Shown here in pieces: positions 3,076-58,120 of a stretch of DNA of 64,000 nucleotides. Position numbers and translations under genes: made by a program. Position 1 is the first letter of the stretch; each line of letters starts with the position of its first letter. The notes beneath the pieces are model-generated. The model saw nothing but the letters and a program-made list of their open reading frames with translations. It was not told the origin of the DNA and did not search any database. The DNA is from Pyrinomonadaceae bacterium (GTDB taxonomy: Bacteria; Acidobacteriota; Blastocatellia; Pyrinomonadales; Pyrinomonadaceae), in assembly GCA_030841085.1 (NCBI GenBank), contig JAVEDP010000022.1:186001-250000 (forward strand). Direction: 5' to 3'.

Positions 3076-3152
3076 GGCGCATTGGTGTAGTTGGTTAACA
3101 CGCTGCCCTCTCAAGGCAGAGATCACGGGTTCGAGTCCCGTATGCGCTACCA
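3076..3152 (+). tRNA. tRNA-Glu (anticodon CTC)
   Basis: A full cloverleaf can be folded by hand. The acceptor stem is GGCGCAT/ATGCGCT with a G-U pair at the end, and the D stem is GTGT/ACAC. The anticodon stem is CTGCC/GGCAG around the loop CTCTCAA, giving anticodon CTC. The T arm is ACGGG-TTCGAGT-CCCGT. A discriminator A and an encoded CCA (3150-3152) follow. CTC reads GAG, hence glutamate. It stands alone between pntAA and the methyltransferase gene. Confidence 0.95.
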
Positions 3153-16729: not shown

Positions 16730-17734
16730 CTATTCGCTCAAGGTTCCATACACGCGCAAGCGGCTGACACCGCCATCGGGGAAAATGTTGAAGCGCAGAT
16801 GCGAAACCTGACCGGCGTCAAGGATTTCTTTTTCAAAAAAATGGCGCGTGTGTGCTTGCAACTTTGTACGCGGCAGAATGCTGTTCCAGACAACCGACAA
16901 ATCCGTCAGCGCCGCTGCGGTTGACTCGGTGGCCTGCGTCGCTTCCAAAGCACAGCTCTCGGGAAAATTTCCTTTGAACCAGGCCGTGTCAACTTCCAGG
17001 CGCCGCACCTGTCCCACCGCGCCGAGCTTGATGATGGCCCAATCGTGGCCCGGCCCGCGACGCCGTTTTGTTTCCCAGCCGTCGCTCATGTTTGCTGCCC
17101 GTCCCGGCATGATCAGGTTGTGACGATGCCCAAAAAACATGTCGCTGCAAGCAATCACTCGACCGCCATTTTCCACCGCCGCCAAGTCGACGTCGCCGCC
17201 GATGCGTTGCAGACGCTCCCAGTCGGGCAGGACCTCGCCATAAACTCGCAAGCGCGCGACACCGCCATCAGGATAAATCTTGAAGCGAAGATGCGTTGCG
17301 CGCTGCGCCCCTTCGACGGCAATAGAGTTTTGCGAATCGCCGGTCAACGGCATCTGCGGTAGTAGCGGTATCCAGTTGACGGCATCGCTTTGCAAATCTT
17401 CAGCCGTCGGTTGCCCTGCAAGCGCGCAGGCTTCGAGTGAAAAGTGTTCAGGGTAATTGCCGCGAAAAAACCTGGTATCAACTACGACGCCGCGAATGAT
17501 TCCCGGCAGCCCGAGACGAATGATGCACCAATCAAAACCGGGCGTGCGTCGCCGTCTTGTTTCCCAACCGTCCATCCACTTGCCCAAGTCGGTATACTTG
17601 CCTTCGATAAAAATCGGCGCGCTGGGTTTAAGTAAATTTTCTTTCGGCGCAAAAAACTCATCGTTAGCGACAAGCACGGCGCCGCCAACTTTCTCGGCCG
17701 CCAGGTCGACCAGTTCTGTGAAGTCCATTCCCAT
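16730..17734 (-). CDS. alc: Allantoicase
   Basis: This 334-residue enzyme splits allantoate to ureidoglycolate and urea. It is built of two homologous halves. Each has DGWET(R/K)RRR followed by FDWCIIRLG or HDWAIIKLG, then VDT(R/A)(F/W)F(R/K)GN(Y/F)PE and a closing HLRF(K/N)I(Y/F)PDGG...RLRVYG. Two such beta-sandwich repeats are the mark of allantoicase. It follows the small cupin gene with only three bases between them, so the two are almost certainly translated from one message. Confidence 0.96.
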   Translation of the reverse strand: MGMDFTELVDLAAEKVGGAVLVANDEFFAPKENLLKPSAPIFIEGKYTDLGKWMDGWETRRRRTPGFDWCIIRLGLPGIIRGVVVDTRFFRGNYPEHFSLEACALAGQPTAEDLQSDAVNWIPLLPQMPLTGDSQNSIAVEGAQRATHLRFKIYPDGGVARLRVYGEVLPDWERLQRIGGDVDLAAVENGGRVIACSDMFFGHRHNLIMPGRAANMSDGWETKRRRGPGHDWAIIKLGAVGQVRRLEVDTAWFKGNFPESCALEATQATESTAAALTDLSVVWNSILPRTKLQAHTRHFFEKEILDAGQVSHLRFNIFPDGGVSRLRVYGTLSE

Positions 17735-18073: not shown

Positions 18074-18157
18074 GTAAAGCAAACTGTTAGTTTGCGGGGG
18101 TTCGTTACCGCTCAACTTGAAGGTTGCCCACCAACGCAAACTAACAGTTTGCTTTAC
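18074..18157. repeat. REP-pair element, GTAAAGC family, copy B
   Basis: Facing units lie at 18074-18096 and 18135-18157, with the same GCAAACTGTTAGTTTGC palindrome as copy A. The outer end GTAAAGC overlaps the allB gene: the allB stop codon (18154-18156 on the minus strand) is the TAA of the repeat itself. Confidence 0.88.
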
Positions 18158-19590
18158 GAGGTCAACAAAACCCCGCGCGGTCCGCCAACGAATTCGCCGT
18201 CATCATATATCTTCCGGCCGCGAAGAAAAGTTTTCTCGACGATACCGGAAAGCTTTTTGCCTTCGTAGGGCGTCAGTTTATGACGATGGTGCAGCCGTTG
18301 TCCGGCCACCTCGAATTGCTTTTCCGGATTCCAAATTACCAAATCGGCATCCCAGCCGGCTGCGATTTTGCCCTTACGATTTTGCAACCCAACGAGCTGC
18401 GCGGGCGCGGCGCACAGCCAGCGACTCAAGTCGTCGAGGGAATGACCGCGTCGCTGGGCTTCTGTCCAGACAAGCGGCAGCCGCAACTGCAAAGATGAGA
18501 TGCCACCCCAGGCGGCGAGAAAATCGCCGCTTTCGCGCAACTTCATTTCCGGCGGGCAAGGCGAATGATCCGATACGATCATGTCCAGCGTTCCATCGCC
18601 CAGCGCGGCCCACAGCTGTTCACAGTTTTCACGCTCGCGAATTGGCGGACAACACTTGAACTCGGTCGCGCCATCCGGAATGTCTTCCGAAGCCAGCGTC
18701 AAATAATGCGGACAAGTTTCAGCAGTGATTTTCAAGCCCGCGGTTTTCGCGGCTCGCAATTCGCCGAGCGCATCCGAAGATGAATGATGAACGATGTGCA
18801 CACGCGTGCCGAATTCGCGTGCCAACTTGATCATCAACTCGACCGCTTCGTTCTCCGCTGCCCGAGGTCGCGATGCGAGGAACGTTTCGTATCGAGTAGG
18901 ACAGACATTCCTGTCTGTCCCGATTTCTTTCTCAGTAGGATAGACATTCCTGTCTGTCCCGATTTCCTTTTCAGCGACATTGGGACAGGCAGGAATGCCT
19001 GTCCTACTGATTGGCCCGGGAAGTTCGGCATGAACAATCAAGATCGCGCCCAATCGCGTCAGCTCAGGCAGCGCAGTTCGCAAATCTCCTTCCGTAACAT
19101 TAGGAAATTCATCGACGCCGGAATGAATCAGAAAACATTTGAACCCAACCACGCCCGCCGCTAGCAAAGGCGCCAGTTCGCTTGTGTTTCCGGGAACCAC
19201 ACCGCCCCAGAAACCAACATCAACCGAACATTTACTTTTCGCGGCTGCTAATTTTTCTTCAAACCCGACGCGCGTTGTCGTGGGCGGAATTGAATTCAGC
19301 GGCATGTCTACAATCGTTGTAATGCCGCCCGCGGCTGCCGCACGCGTTGCTGTTTCAAATCCTTCCCATTCGGTCCGGCCGGGTTCGTTGACGTGAACGT
19401 GACTATCGACCAGGCCCGGCATCACAATCGATTGCTCGCCCACTTCCACCAATTCAGAACCGGCGGGAACATCTTCGTAATCCGCAACCGTTGCGATCTT
19501 GTCTTGCGAAATATGTATAGCCGCCGCCGCGATTCCGTGCGGCAGCACTACTTGTTTTGCGCGAATGACAAGATTCGATCGTAGTAGCAT
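18154..19590 (-). CDS. allB: Allantoinase with in-frame repeat insertion
   Basis: This 478-residue amidohydrolase opens allantoin to allantoate. Metal ligands are visible in DSHVHVNEPGRTEWEG, GFKCFLIHSG (carbamylated Lys), ILIVHAELPG, VHIVHHSS and IVSDHSPCP. Right after HAELPGPI, about 38 extra residues (SRTGIPACPN ... NVCPTR) are encoded by three copies of a palindromic repeat (18895-19008). Without them the length would be about 440, normal for AllB. The start at 19590 is within another repeat (19584-19606); the frame stays open to 19653 but upstream residues are repeat-encoded. The stop codon belongs to the repeat at 18074-18157. It is likely active, because the insert lies in a loop after the third ligand. 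Confidence 0.93.
   Translation of the reverse strand: MLLRSNLVIRAKQVVLPHGIAAAAIHISQDKIATVADYEDVPAGSELVEVGEQSIVMPGLVDSHVHVNEPGRTEWEGFETATRAAAAGGITTIVDMPLNSIPPTTTRVGFEEKLAAAKSKCSVDVGFWGGVVPGNTSELAPLLAAGVVGFKCFLIHSGVDEFPNVTEGDLRTALPELTRLGAILIVHAELPGPISRTGIPACPNVAEKEIGTDRNVYPTEKEIGTDRNVCPTRYETFLASRPRAAENEAVELMIKLAREFGTRVHIVHHSSSDALGELRAAKTAGLKITAETCPHYLTLASEDIPDGATEFKCCPPIRERENCEQLWAALGDGTLDMIVSDHSPCPPEMKLRESGDFLAAWGGISSLQLRLPLVWTEAQRRGHSLDDLSRWLCAAPAQLVGLQNRKGKIAAGWDADLVIWNPEKQFEVAGQRLHHRHKLTPYEGKKLSGIVEKTFLRGRKIYDDGEFVGGPRGVLLTS
18895..19008. repeat. Three GTAGGACAG-family palindromes inserted in frame in allB
   Basis: Two direct copies (GTAGGACAGACATTCC at 18896 and GTAGGATAGACATTCC at 18935) and one inverted copy (from 18981, ending GCCTGTCCTAC at 19007) form a 114-base block, a multiple of three. 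The family also occurs at 37691, 50492 and at both ends of 57847-58120. In the allB frame it is read as RTGIPACP and EIGTDRNV(Y/C)PT peptides. Confidence 0.88.
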
Positions 19591-19641
19591 AGACTTTAGT
19601 CTGTGCTCGCGGACATCGCCACAGACTGAAGTCTGTGCCAC
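19584..19641. repeat. ACAGACT/AGTCTGT palindrome pair over the allB start
   Basis: GTAGCATAGACTTTAGTCTG (19584-19603) and ACAGACTGAAGTCTGTG (19621-19637) are related palindromes in inverted order. The allB ATG is formed inside the first unit. Relatives are at 39971-40062 and 41111-41228. Confidence 0.78.
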
Positions 19642-19656
19642 AGGCGCGATCATTTT

Positions 19657-37690: not shown

Positions 37691-37717
37691 GGGACAGACA
37701 GGAATGTCTATCCTACG
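37691..37717. repeat. Single GTAGGACAG-family palindrome
   Basis: GGGACAGACAGGAATGTCTA followed by TCCTACG is the inverted form of the units found in allB at 18896-19007. Only one arm is present here, in an intergenic position. Confidence 0.75.
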
Positions 37718-49149: not shown

Positions 49150-49457
49150 CCAAAGCGTTTCGAATTCACGGTCTGGCCGAAGATGAACTCACTAGTGCGG
49201 CGTCGTGGTATGAATCCAAGCAGGCTGGCTTGGGTGAATCCTTACTTGACCTGGTTGATAACATCGTTGACCGCATATGCTCAGGTAGCTTACCAAGCAG
49301 TCCTATTCCTGGGGTCGCGGCCAAAGGTGCCCGACGAGTTTTGCTGAGACGTTTCCCTTACTCAATCGTCTTCTATGAACGCCGTGAGGAGATAATGATC
49401 GTAGCCTTTGCTCACAGCAGCCAAAGGCCGGGCTATTGGCGTTCGCGAAAACTATAA
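49146..49457 (+). CDS. RelE/ParE-family toxin
   Basis: This 103-residue protein starts at GTG 49146 within the antitoxin stop. It reads AFRIHGLAEDELTSAASWYE, GLGESLLDLVDNIVDRI, RRVLLRRFPYSIVFYERREE and AFAHSSQRPGYWRSRK. The RRFPYSIVF and AHxxQRPxYW segments are typical ParE/RelE features. It ends 16 bases before the VWA gene, so it lies in the same transcript as its neighbours. Confidence 0.92.
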   Translation: MTKAFRIHGLAEDELTSAASWYESKQAGLGESLLDLVDNIVDRICSGSLPSSPIPGVAAKGARRVLLRRFPYSIVFYERREEIMIVAFAHSSQRPGYWRSRKL

Positions 49458-49473
49458 GCTCCCTCTCTCAGAT

Positions 49474-50823
49474 ATGAAGTTCACCCGCTACTCAAAATTC
49501 AAAGGTCTCGACGTTTCCGGCATCAACCTGGGCGACTTGATGGAAGGTCTGTCTGATTCGCTGCTCGATTCCGGTTATGACGACGATTACTACTGGACGC
49601 GCCAACGTTATCCGCAGGACACGTCGCTGGATGCACTGCGGCGTGCGCTGTTGCAGGCCTTGATGGACCAGGGACTCTTGAACGAATTTCAGGTGCAGGA
49701 GATGCTGGCCGACAACGAAGGCAAGTTCAAGGGTTCGCAGCTCGAGGAAATGCTCAACCAATTGATCGAGCGTTTGGTTGAAGAAGGTTATCTTTCACTT
49801 AAAGAAGAGCCGCCTCGGCAGCCGCGAGACCCGCGCGGTGGACGTGGCACTCCCGAAGTTTCAGAGCCATTGCCGCGCAACGTCAAATTTGAAGTCACCG
49901 AAAAAGGACTGGACTTTCTTGGTTATAAGACGCTGCGGAATCTGTTGGGAAGCTTGGGGAAAAGTTCTGTCGGCCGGCATGACACGCCGCACCTTTCCAC
50001 CGGCGTCGAAGCCGCGGCCGCCAGCAAGCCTTACGAGTTTGGCGACACAATCAATCTCGATGTGAACACCACGCTGCTTTCGGCAATTAAACGCGAAGGC
50101 CTCAGCGTTCCGCTCAATCTCGAGTACAGCGATCTGCACGTCCAACAGTGCGACTATCAATCCTCGTGCGCGACGGTAGTGATGTTGGACTGTTCGCATT
50201 CGATGATTCTTTACGGCGAGGATCGGTTTACGCCGGCGAAAAAAGTTGCGCTGGCGCTGGCGCATCTGATTCGCACTCAGTATCCGGGCGACTCGCTGAA
50301 GATCGTGTTGTTCCATGACAGCGCTGAAGAGTTGCCGCTGGCAAAACTCGCCGTGACGCAGGTTGGCCCGTATCACACCAACACGGCGGAAGGGCTGCGC
50401 CTGGCGCGTCGCATCCTGCAGGCACAACGCAAAGAGATGAAGCAGATCGTGATGGTGACGGACGGCAAACCAACCGCGTGCTTTGTTGAAGGTGTAGGAC
50501 AGGCATTCCTGCCTGTCAACCGTTCAAACAATGCGAGTGACATGCGAACCGGCAAGAATGCCGTTCCTACACGCCACATCTACAAAAACTCAATGGGCGG
50601 CGATCCGTTCGTAATGGAAGCAACCTTCAAGGAAGTTCAGGCTTGCCGCAAAGCCGGCATCATGATCAATACCTTCATGCTGGCCAGCGATTTTTATCTC
50701 GTCGAGTTCGTAAAGCAAATGACGGCAATGACCAATGGAAAGGCCTATTTCGCAAATCCTGCTAACCTCTCCCAGTTCGTTTTGATAGACTTTCTACGAC
50801 GACGGACCAGCCGGGTTCGTTAA
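49474..50823 (+). CDS. VWA-domain partner of the MoxR/ChlI-type ATPase, with in-frame repeat insertion
   Basis: This 449-residue protein has a charged helical N-terminal half and a C-terminal von Willebrand A domain. The MIDAS residues are in VVMLDCSHSMILYGEDRFTP (DxSxS) near residue 232 and MVTDGKPTA near residue 327. Just after this, residues about 340-367 (EGVGQAFLPVNR ... MRTGKNAVPTR) are encoded by an inverted pair of the GTAGGACAG-family palindrome. HIYKNSMGGDPFV then continues the domain. The start at 49474 (MKFTRYSKFKGLDVSG) fits better than the earlier frame start. It should act with the upstream ATPase as a ChlI/ChlD-like pair. Confidence 0.88.
   Translation: MKFTRYSKFKGLDVSGINLGDLMEGLSDSLLDSGYDDDYYWTRQRYPQDTSLDALRRALLQALMDQGLLNEFQVQEMLADNEGKFKGSQLEEMLNQLIERLVEEGYLSLKEEPPRQPRDPRGGRGTPEVSEPLPRNVKFEVTEKGLDFLGYKTLRNLLGSLGKSSVGRHDTPHLSTGVEAAAASKPYEFGDTINLDVNTTLLSAIKREGLSVPLNLEYSDLHVQQCDYQSSCATVVMLDCSHSMILYGEDRFTPAKKVALALAHLIRTQYPGDSLKIVLFHDSAEELPLAKLAVTQVGPYHTNTAEGLRLARRILQAQRKEMKQIVMVTDGKPTACFVEGVGQAFLPVNRSNNASDMRTGKNAVPTRHIYKNSMGGDPFVMEATFKEVQACRKAGIMINTFMLASDFYLVEFVKQMTAMTNGKAYFANPANLSQFVLIDFLRRRTSRVR
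50492..50573. repeat. GTAGGACAG-family palindrome pair inserted in the VWA gene
   Basis: GTGTAGGACAGGCATTCCTG (from 50492) and the inverted arm GAACCGGCAAGAATGCCGTT with CCTACAC (to 50573) flank a short spacer. The reading frame passes through all of it, giving VGQAFLPVNR and RTGKNAVPT peptides. Confidence 0.85.
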
Positions 50824-56474: not shown

Positions 56475-57851
56475 ATGGGAAACACAAGCGCAATTGTTTT
56501 CTCGGGAATTGCTCCTCATCCGCCGATTATGGTTCCCGAGGTCGGCCGCGAAGCGATCGCCGAGGTACGCGGCTCAATCGATGCGATGGCGGAACTGACC
56601 CGTCGAATTATCCAGAGCGGCGCCGAAACAATCATCGTCATTTCGCCTCATGCGCCACTAAGTCCAGACGCGTTTGTCGCCTACCACTCGCAACCCCTTC
56701 ATGGAGATTTTGCAAACTTTCGCGCGCCAGCCACGACCGTCGAATTTCCCATCGATGAAGAGCTACTCGCCGCAATTGTTAACGCCGCGGCGAACGCTGA
56801 TTATGAGGTGCCCGCACTCGAGGGTCACGACCTGGACCATGGAACGGCGGTGCCGCTGTACTTTCTCGATCGTAACGGCTGGCAGGGACGCGTGGTCGCG
56901 CTTGGCTACAGCTTTCTCGCAAATGAAGATCATCTCAAGTTTGGCGAATGTATCCGGCGGGCGGCGGAAAAAGTTGGACGAAGTGTGGCTTTTATCGCCA
57001 GCGGAGATTTGAGTCACCGGCTGAAACCCGAAGCGCCCGCCGGCTATAACTCCTCGGCACATTTGTTTGATGAACAGGTTGTTGATGCGTTGACGCGCAA
57101 CACACCCAGGCAAATCATCGATATCGATCCGAATTTAAGGCGCATGGCCGGCGAGTGTGGCTATCGCTCAATACTTGTCGCGCTTGGCTTGGCGCAGAGT
57201 TTGCCGGCGGCTTGTGAGGTACTTCATTACGAAGCGCCATTTGGCGTTGGCTATCTCGTGGCGCAACTAACAAATGTTAAGTCGGACAATGATAGTGAAG
57301 TTGACTTCGCCATTAGCCAGCAAACTTCGGGTGACGAAGATTTGCCAGTTCTCGCTCGACGCGCCGTCGAAACCTTTGTCCGCAATGGCCGGCAAATTTC
57401 AGTTCCGCAAAACGCTGCCGAGATCCTGGGCGCGCGCGCGGCTTGCTTCGTCTCAATCAAAACGCGAGACGGCGATTTGCGCGGCTGCATCGGCACTATC
57501 GAACCGGTCAAGGAAACGCTTGGTGATGAACTTATTGCAAATGCGATAAGCGCAGCCACACGCGATCCGCGGTTTGCTCCTGTCCAAGAAAGCGAATTGC
57601 CTAACCTTAAGTATTCAGTCGATATTCTGAGTGCGCCCGAACCGGCGACTGTTGCGGATCTCGATCCGGCCATCTACGGCGTAATTGTCGAGGATGAATC
57701 GGGTTTGTTGCGCGGCTTGTTATTGCCCGACATTGAGGGTGTGGATACGGCCGAGCAACAGGTCAGCATCGCGGCGCGCAAGGCAGGGATTGCGCCGGGA
57801 ACGCCGCTCAAGCTTTCACGTTTTCGCGTGGATCGTTTTGGTGAGAAGTAG
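56475..57851 (+). CDS. Memo-AMMECR1 fusion (AmmeMemoRadiSam system proteins B and A)
   Basis: This 458-residue protein joins two domains. Residues 1-270 form a Memo-type domain (class III dioxygenase fold) with FSGIAPHPPIMVPEVG, VISPHAPLSPDAF, LEGHDLDHGTAVPLYF and IASGDLSHRL as the histidine-bearing loops. Residues 285-455 form an AMMECR1 domain with FVSIKTRDGDLRGCIGTIEP (the LRGCIG motif) near residue 325 and EDESGLLRGLLLP. These two usually act with a radical SAM protein, for which no gene is visible here. GGAGGATCA precedes the ATG by three to four bases. The TAG stop is within a GTAGGACAG repeat. Confidence 0.93.
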   Translation: MGNTSAIVFSGIAPHPPIMVPEVGREAIAEVRGSIDAMAELTRRIIQSGAETIIVISPHAPLSPDAFVAYHSQPLHGDFANFRAPATTVEFPIDEELLAAIVNAAANADYEVPALEGHDLDHGTAVPLYFLDRNGWQGRVVALGYSFLANEDHLKFGECIRRAAEKVGRSVAFIASGDLSHRLKPEAPAGYNSSAHLFDEQVVDALTRNTPRQIIDIDPNLRRMAGECGYRSILVALGLAQSLPAACEVLHYEAPFGVGYLVAQLTNVKSDNDSEVDFAISQQTSGDEDLPVLARRAVETFVRNGRQISVPQNAAEILGARAACFVSIKTRDGDLRGCIGTIEPVKETLGDELIANAISAATRDPRFAPVQESELPNLKYSVDILSAPEPATVADLDPAIYGVIVEDESGLLRGLLLPDIEGVDTAEQQVSIAARKAGIAPGTPLKLSRFRVDRFGEK

Positions 57852-58120
57852 GACAGGCATTCCTGCCTGTCCCTTGTCTTATTTACGATCACGGTCAGGT
57901 AAGTTGAAAGAGGAAGGAAGATTTTCCATTCATCATTTGCCATTTCTCATTTTTCATTGAAGTGAAGCGGAAAGAAGTGAGACGAGAATCAGGCACGGTT
58001 TCCTACCAGATCAGTTAGATGAAAAATGAGAAATGGCAAATGATGAATGGAAAATCTTTCCTGTTTTCTTCGGTCAGTACAATCGCCCGCTGTGGGAGAC
58101 AGGCAGAATGCCTGTCCTAC
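57847..58120. repeat. Composite repeat filling the Memo-gyrB gap
   Basis: The outer ends are GTAGGACAG-family arms: GTAGGACAGGCATTCCTG at 57848 and, inverted, CAGAATGCCTGTCCTAC at 58104-58120. Within is a long, almost perfect inverted repeat: 57916-57957 (GGAAGATTTTCCATTCATCA ... TTTTCAT) against 58019-58061, with one extra base. The Memo stop and the gyrB stop (58121-58123) are both touched by the element. Confidence 0.88.

Follow-up and report, generated by a model that had tools for sequence, protein, structure and literature searches.

A GTAG-type REP palindrome read in frame in an allantoinase gene of a Pyrinomonadaceae bacterium and its probable decay among relatives

The allantoinase gene (allB) in the 64,000-nucleotide stretch of DNA analysed here, called the window in the following, contains three 25-bp units of GTAGGACAGnCATTCCTGnCTGTCC, a GTAG-type REP palindrome, in frame. 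Together they form a block of 114 bp at 18895..19008 on the minus strand, which encodes SRTGIPACPNVAEKEIGTDRNVYPTEKEIGTDRNVCPT. The block probably goes back to one old in-frame REP insertion that has been inherited since, with the palindrome being lost where the REP family dwindled. Below, the genome of the window is called G000 and the related genomes are numbered in the same way.

The REP block in allB

The allB ORF runs over 18154..19653 on the minus strand (499 codons). It is identified as the AllB equivalog by NCBIfam TIGR03178, with 582.9 bits against a cut-off of 357.85, and it also matches PF01979. The residues H85, H87, K172, H208, H289 and D362 are invariant in 31 sequences, and they align with H59, H61, K146, H186, H242 and D315, which are the metal ligands of the E. 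coli allantoinase according to the excerpted text of PMC9863593. Downstream of allB there are a cupin gene and an allantoicase gene (16730..17734, minus strand; PF03561, E 4.9e-107), the latter providing pathway context. With no stop codon in the 114 bp at 18895-19008 and a TIGR03178 score above the cut-off, the claim of the preliminary description that three palindromic units are read in frame in an allantoinase is confirmed.

Unit 1 (18983..19007, minus strand) is the 5' arm in the gene, is of the GGC...GCC type and matches the consensus without mismatch. Units 2 (18935..18959, plus strand, one mismatch) and 3 (18896..18920, plus strand, no mismatch) have the opposite orientation and are of the GAC...GTC type. 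There are also two tandem 39-bp repeats on the minus strand, 18934-18972 and 18895-18933 (18895..18972 as a whole), which are identical at 36 of the 39 positions. On the coding strand of allB, two of the units form an inverted, head-head pair whose GTAG ends point outwards, and the second half of this pair is repeated in tandem as a copy of 39 bp. In the allB of G014 the inverted pair is found without this tandem copy. The unit has a GTAG end beside a short palindromic stem-loop, that is, GTAG-GACAGGCA-TTCC-TGCCTGTC-C. As RNA, the block folds at −66.4 kcal/mol (z −10.8), and in the predicted fold one unit forms its own hairpin and the other two pair with each other. The 9-mer used in the preliminary description is weak evidence by itself, as it has 10 matches with at most one mismatch in the window compared to 5.4 expected, and 5 of 100 shuffles also reach 10.

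Two more palindromes were observed at the ends of the ORF. A second family (AGACTTTAGTCTGTG / CACAGACTTCAGTCTGTG, inverted) occupies 19588-19640, corresponding to the first 21 codons. This part is probably the 5' leader of allB, and judging from the sequence the true start is probably the ATG at 19590 (M22). A third palindrome (CAAACTGTTAGTTTGC ... GCAAACTAACAGTTTGC) is located at 18077-18160 of the window, at the allB stop codon.

The AlphaFold2 model of the protein, built with 31 sequences, has a mean pLDDT of 87.4. Values below 50 are found at residues 224-247, which lie inside the insert and are flanked by ten-residue blocks of 88 and 86. Apart from the N terminus (1-24), this is the only listed segment with such low values. 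The closest solved structures are allantoinases, the best fold match being the E. coli enzyme 8hfd (E 1e-45). The modelling that the preliminary description had called for thus depicts the insert as a low-confidence loop on what appears to be an intact allantoinase barrel. The insert is placed after H208, the histidine aligned with E. coli H186, and its position differs from those of the two dynamic active-site loops, A58-R67 and G141-N165, given for the E. coli enzyme in the excerpts of PMC9863593. An intact barrel with the insert outside these loops would plausibly leave AllB active as an enzyme, with a floppy extra loop that is neutral for its function.

The REP family and its RAYT gene

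The 22-bp palindrome has 159 matches in G000 with up to three mismatches, where one place could in principle count on both strands, compared to 0 for the reversed control. This abundance is far beyond chance. Units were surveyed in 58 fetched stretches of G000 and in the window, around the places listed, which for the 159 matches are the best 100. In this surveyed part we find 141 units (up to five mismatches; two overlapping self-matches were removed from 143) in 79 clusters, of which 39 are single units, 26 are plain inverted pairs and the remainder are larger. A head-head pair is present in 38 of the 40 multi-unit clusters among these 79, and a tail-tail pair in none.

A RAYT gene coding for 194 aa is located at L151:3489-4073 (−) and has REP units on both sides. 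It matches Y1_Tnp, and it reaches 80 bits with NCBIfam REP_Tyr_transpos, which is exactly at the cut-off of 80. Beside it there is an eight-unit REP array, L151:4128-4383 (G000:C9:95127-95382), seven units of which have the same orientation with a spacing of 30-33 bp. The excerpted text of Di Nocera et al. 2013 (PMC3733652) characterizes GTAG REPs by a GTAG end, a short stem-loop, head-head dimers and REP-flanked RAYT genes. The stem-loop, the dispersal, the head-head dimers and the REP-flanked RAYT found here are features of this kind, and the allB palindrome is by its sequence a member of a GTAG-tagged REP family with an associated RAYT gene. The Rfam search of the window returned only a tRNA at 3076-3149.

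The preliminary description had placed the other units of the window between genes. This holds for the single units at 37692..37716 (minus strand) and 57848..57872 (plus strand, with an imperfect partner at 58112-58120 on the minus strand), neither of which is spanned with a margin by an ORF of at least 100 codons. However, it does not hold for a second pair at 50494..50570 (plus strand), which is in frame in a VWA-domain ORF (49405-50820), has an imperfect second unit with five mismatches and is read as VGQAFLPVNRSNNASDMRTGKNAVPT.

In-frame units are in fact present in at least five further genes of G000, encoding an NRPS condensation domain, a GcvT-like protein, an Lhr helicase and two VWA proteins, one of 1029 codons and the one in the window. 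Left out of this count were two ORFs with units near the N terminus only, one for a hexapeptide transferase (L198) and one with a sub-threshold HD match (L185), as well as ORFs in L168, L173 and L147, the last without a Pfam match, and an ORF on the other strand in L190. G005 has, in addition, an in-frame block in an error-prone DNA polymerase gene (L329:1-2634, G005:C282; NCBIfam PRK05672 above cut-off). AllB is therefore not a unique conversion, and the idea that its block is the only one of its kind was rejected on the basis of these genes. The same REP-encoded peptides are found in unrelated proteins. In the Lhr-type helicase ORF (L191, G000:C29), the in-frame REP (GTGRNACPT) has TAGVPPAMS ... 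AGGMSAVP beside it, which looks like another palindrome family in frame.

The orthologs of three of these genes differ in what they carry. For the GcvT-like gene there is an exact unit in G005 and none in G014 or G011. For the 1029-codon VWA gene, G005 has a pair with two mismatches in each unit and G011 has none; at the position of these REPs, G014 has a different, longer insert (G014:C2:32299-32426, L265/L261). The ortholog of the VWA gene of the window contains a variant palindrome (GGACAGACTTTCCAGTCTGTC) in G014 and a worn one in G005, and no recognisable palindrome is seen in the orthologs of G011 or the sister clade introduced below.

The loop in related genomes

An AllB-like match is present in 114 of 115 genomes, G000 included. 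Of the 42 loci examined, 39 gave a readable loop between the HAE and SRP motifs, the exceptions being the genus members G002, G007 and G009. The loops of loci L024, L025 and L026 are identical to those of G011, G005 and G014, evidently the same species, and each was counted once. The loop has 56 residues in G000, 53 in G011, 57 in G005 and 44 in G014, with SRTGIP at the same codon in all four. It has 39-42 residues in the sister genomes G001, G006, G008 and G012, 24-29 in five further congeners, and 31-37 in the remaining 26 relatives except G043, which has 44. The insert is clear in G014 and G005 and eroded in G011, always at the codon where it is found in G000. The alignment to relatives proposed earlier thus finds AllB proteins free of the insert, but also three congeners that share it. 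Moreover, the units do encode the ca 38 residues previously reported as added, but since 30 of the 31 relatives that have neither a clear insert nor a trace of one possess loops of 24-37 residues (G043 again being the exception), compared to 56 in G000, the net gain is only ca 19-32 residues.

The orientation and the order of the arms, GGC type first and GAC type second, are the same in G000, G005 and G014. The linker residues between the arms differ among the REP-bearing species, and G005 carries an extra unit that is different from that of G000. The loops of the sister clade are intermediate in length and non-palindromic. We compared 37 of the 39 loops (all except G064 and G067) with the two REP arms by local alignment, against 1000 codon shuffles of each loop. 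For the summed score, all four REP-bearing loops have p 0.001, and the sisters have p 0.004 (G001), 0.008 (G006), 0.009 (G012) and 0.001 (G008). Taken separately, both arms are below 0.05 only in G006 and G008 among the four sisters, while the test fails for arm 1 in G001 (0.111) and arm 2 in G012 (0.513). In G008 the arm residues are echoed as R-A-A-V-P-A-C ... D-G-N-F-Y-P-S. Among the 29 other relatives, the p of the summed score is less than 0.05 for three (G043 0.049, G003 0.046, G020 0.028) and less than 0.01 for none. The value of G043 may be a hint of an older event.

These results bear on the possibility that the segment is an ancient domain, for which the preliminary description had named a segment conserved without DNA palindromes as the telling sign. 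Formally, the four sisters show just that, yet their loops still match the REP arms beyond the codon shuffles, and the decay of an old insert is therefore the better reading. The candidate of an ancient conserved domain was rejected, considering also the loop of 24-37 residues in 30 of the 31 others (44 in G043) and the presence of the same peptides in unrelated genes.

In a tree calculated with the loop masked, the four REP-bearing genomes group together with support of 99/97, the four sisters with 100/99 and all eight with 95/90, and the state of the insert requires one change. AU tests do not reject trees in which the REP-bearing clade (p 0.277) or the sister clade (p 0.196) is joined with the short-loop congeners, so that a single insertion is favoured, not proven. 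It is important to point out that the reading frame of allB in G005 is interrupted by a TGA, which five codons separate from the HAE motif that follows. That copy may therefore be a pseudogene or contain a sequence error, recoding being another option, and the row of G005 in the tree consists only of the 263-residue part after the TGA.

The course of events that we propose is as follows. A RAYT-associated inverted pair of GTAG REPs would have inserted in frame into the variable loop of AllB after H208, with the RAYT as the presumed inserter, and it would have been tolerated because it extends a disordered loop. The insertion would date back to an ancestor that the four REP-bearing genomes share with one another, and probably with the four-genome sister clade as well, and would then have been passed on vertically. 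In the lineage of the window, half of the insert would have been duplicated in tandem, the 39 bp keeping the frame.

An alternative is that REPs were inserted independently in G000, G005, G014 and G011, at a hot spot or a tolerant site after HAExPGP. REP-rich genomes keep inserting, the extra unit of G005 differs from that of G000, the identity of the arm DNA is above what a long shared history would lead one to expect, and the AU tests leave room for such a scenario. However, the codon is the same in all four genomes, the orientation and the arm order agree in three of them, and arm-like sequence is present in four sisters with almost no REPs. REP sites are, furthermore, commonly shared. Where the flanks of a G000 cluster match a fetched stretch of another REP-bearing genome, a REP lies no more than 250 bp away in 22 of 28 cases for G011, 11 of 14 for G014 and 10 of 13 for G005, counts that include some flanks of only 64-146 bp or sharing one target and cover part of the sites of each genome. 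If long flanks are required, allB and the cluster at G000 C11:16736 are the only sites common to all four in these stretches. We therefore regard independent insertions as unlikely.

An artefact of assembly or binning is hardly credible. Although the named relatives are metagenome assemblies and repeats are error-prone, the block occurs at the same codon in four genomes, with differing sequences and lengths.

Conservation of the palindromic DNA

We now consider how the palindrome has been kept. In a one-sided comparison of how often identical residues use the same codon in the loop and in the rest of the gene, the loop is more conserved for G000-G014 (16/19 vs 139/321, p 0.0005), G000-G005 (21/22 vs 91/195, p 4e-6), G005-G014 (16/18 vs 100/208, p 0.0006), G011-G014 (11/14 vs 141/331, p 0.008) and G011-G005 (16/22 vs 93/198, p 0.018). 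No significant difference is seen for G000-G011 (15/19 vs 257/382, p 0.21) or for the three pairs that include a sister-clade genome (p 0.85, 0.13 and 1), and the nine pairs share genomes, so they are not independent. In the linker between the arms, none of the nine aligned codons match between G000 and G014. Since the synonymous choices are conserved beyond the background of the gene, the conservation seems to have its cause at least partly in the palindromic DNA itself rather than in the peptide alone.

Purifying selection on the residues, with RTGIPAC...DRNVCPT being a functional loop of the enzyme, would account for the arm residues being conserved in the REP-bearing genomes and recognisable again in the sister clade, for example in G008. 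It does not account for the conservation of synonymous choices. Moreover, the linker residues vary, the loop length ranges over 44-57 residues among the four species, the same peptides are present in unrelated genes and the model gives no confident fold for the loop. This explanation is thus very improbable.

The REP counts track the state of the allB loop. With at most one mismatch, there are 120 matches in G000, 90 in G014, 38 in G005 and 14 in G011, and none in the other 12 of the 16 genus members. Any such match is found in only 8 of the 115 genomes (G000 included), the four outside the REP-bearing set having 1-2. Allowing three mismatches, the numbers are 159, 144, 107 and 38, respectively, compared to 0-4 elsewhere and 0-2 in the controls. 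The sister clade is within this range (G012 4, G001 3, G008 1, G006 0), with the count of G008 being below that of its control (2). The near-perfect share of the matches is 0.75 in G000, 0.62 in G014, 0.36 in G005 and 0.37 in G011, the value of G005 being lowered by the many of its listed units that differ at the last base. These whole-genome shares were preferred to the mismatches at orthologous sites of G000 and G011, because the G000 sites were drawn from the best-matching places.

The RAYT also differs among the four genomes. G014 has a REP-flanked ortholog that is 72% identical, G005 a 38-residue fragment between REP units, and G011 a best match of 42% identity with no REP unit in its fetched locus. 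Because the assemblies of G005 (about 300 contigs) and G011 (about 270) are drafts, a complete RAYT may have escaped detection in them.

We infer that renewal from other REP copies, by re-insertion or gene conversion, is what keeps the codons conserved. Where the REP family and the RAYT persist, the palindromic DNA would stay near the consensus, and in G011, with few REPs, and in the sister clade, with hardly any, the frame would be kept and the palindrome lost. The rival explanation is that selection preserves the hairpin itself in DNA or RNA, for instance for mRNA stability, polarity or protein binding. The very stable predicted RNA structure (z −10.8, see above) and the codon conservation are in line with it. 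However, the gene persists in G011 and in the sister clade although its palindrome is worn in the former and gone in the latter, and the intactness of the palindrome tracks the state of the REP family rather than the gene, which makes selection on the hairpin quite unlikely. Taking renewal one step further, one can speculate that a DNA parasite sets the sequence of an enzyme loop in trans, the allB REP evolving in concert with the other REPs of the genome through RAYT-driven re-insertion or gene conversion. The nucleotides of the loop would then be held constant as long as the REP family is alive, and would drift once the RAYT is lost. We consider this possible, although rather doubtful.

The fetched clusters located inside ORFs of at least 250 codons number 1 of 24 in G011 and 1 of 32 in G014, the allB block in both cases. 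In G005 they number 2 of 28, in the GcvT-like and error-prone DNA polymerase genes, the stop-bearing allB not qualifying.

Relation to known systems

Both intragenic REPs and palindrome inserts common to orthologs have been published before. According to the excerpts of Di Nocera et al. (PMC3733652), single GTAG REPs, dimers and groups occur inside ORFs in several phyla, where a dimer or group mostly codes for 20-30 residues; the targets in other phyla include error-prone DNA polymerase, and two recB genes of Xanthomonas have REPs in roughly the same position. The allB block resembles these intragenic GTAG REPs in its GTAG end, stem-loop, head-head dimer and REP-flanked RAYT, as does the polymerase target of G005. 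Unlike the two-gene recB case in these excerpts, one allB site is here traced over eight genomes, from intact to decayed. The REPIN/RAYT systems likewise have inverted REP pairs and a RAYT gene in the excerpted accounts (PMC3116915, PMC8049555), where they are described as extragenic, whereas the allB copy is coding.

The earlier idea of a non-coding repeat that has become protein is supported by the copy number, the flanked RAYT and the relatives free of the insert, with the qualification that the event is old, shared and paralleled in other genes. K. versatilis is an acidobacterium. In the excerpts of Di Nocera et al. (PMC3733652) it is described as having tyrosine transposase genes with long terminal repeats, and the phylum is therefore not wholly new to the subject. 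A search of the open-licence literature gave, among the matches listed, no title that dealt with REPs or with palindromes read in frame for Pyrinomonadaceae or Blastocatellia.

Palindromic elements of Rickettsia (RPEs) were reportedly treated by Ogata et al. in 2000. In the excerpted text of PMC3767692, these elements, including RPE-4/6/7, lie in frame in protein genes and are solvent-exposed, and orthologs share the insertion site, some of them without the typical palindrome. The allB block is similar in having palindromic DNA in frame at a site common to orthologs, some without the palindrome. It differs from the RPEs as described there, which have other sequences, are mostly longer repeats, have obligate intracellular hosts and, for RPE-4/6/7, frequently carry an ATGAC motif. 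This motif is absent from both strands of 18895-19008, a comparison that covers RPE-4/6/7. RPE-4 and RPE-6 are, in addition, classed with CGTC and not GTAG repeats in the excerpts of Di Nocera et al. (PMC3733652). No RAYT is described for the RPEs in the excerpts of PMC3767692, while the REP family of allB has a REP-flanked one.

The allB block is thus a well-resolved new case from the Acidobacteriota with an unusually clear decay series. The graded states of the loop, that is, short, intact, eroded and with a trace of the insert, illustrate how mobile palindromic DNA can turn into ordinary protein sequence in a bacterium of the soil. The genomes in which the RAYT is intact, broken or apparently missing constitute a natural comparison, which could show whether REP families undergo active renewal at existing sites.
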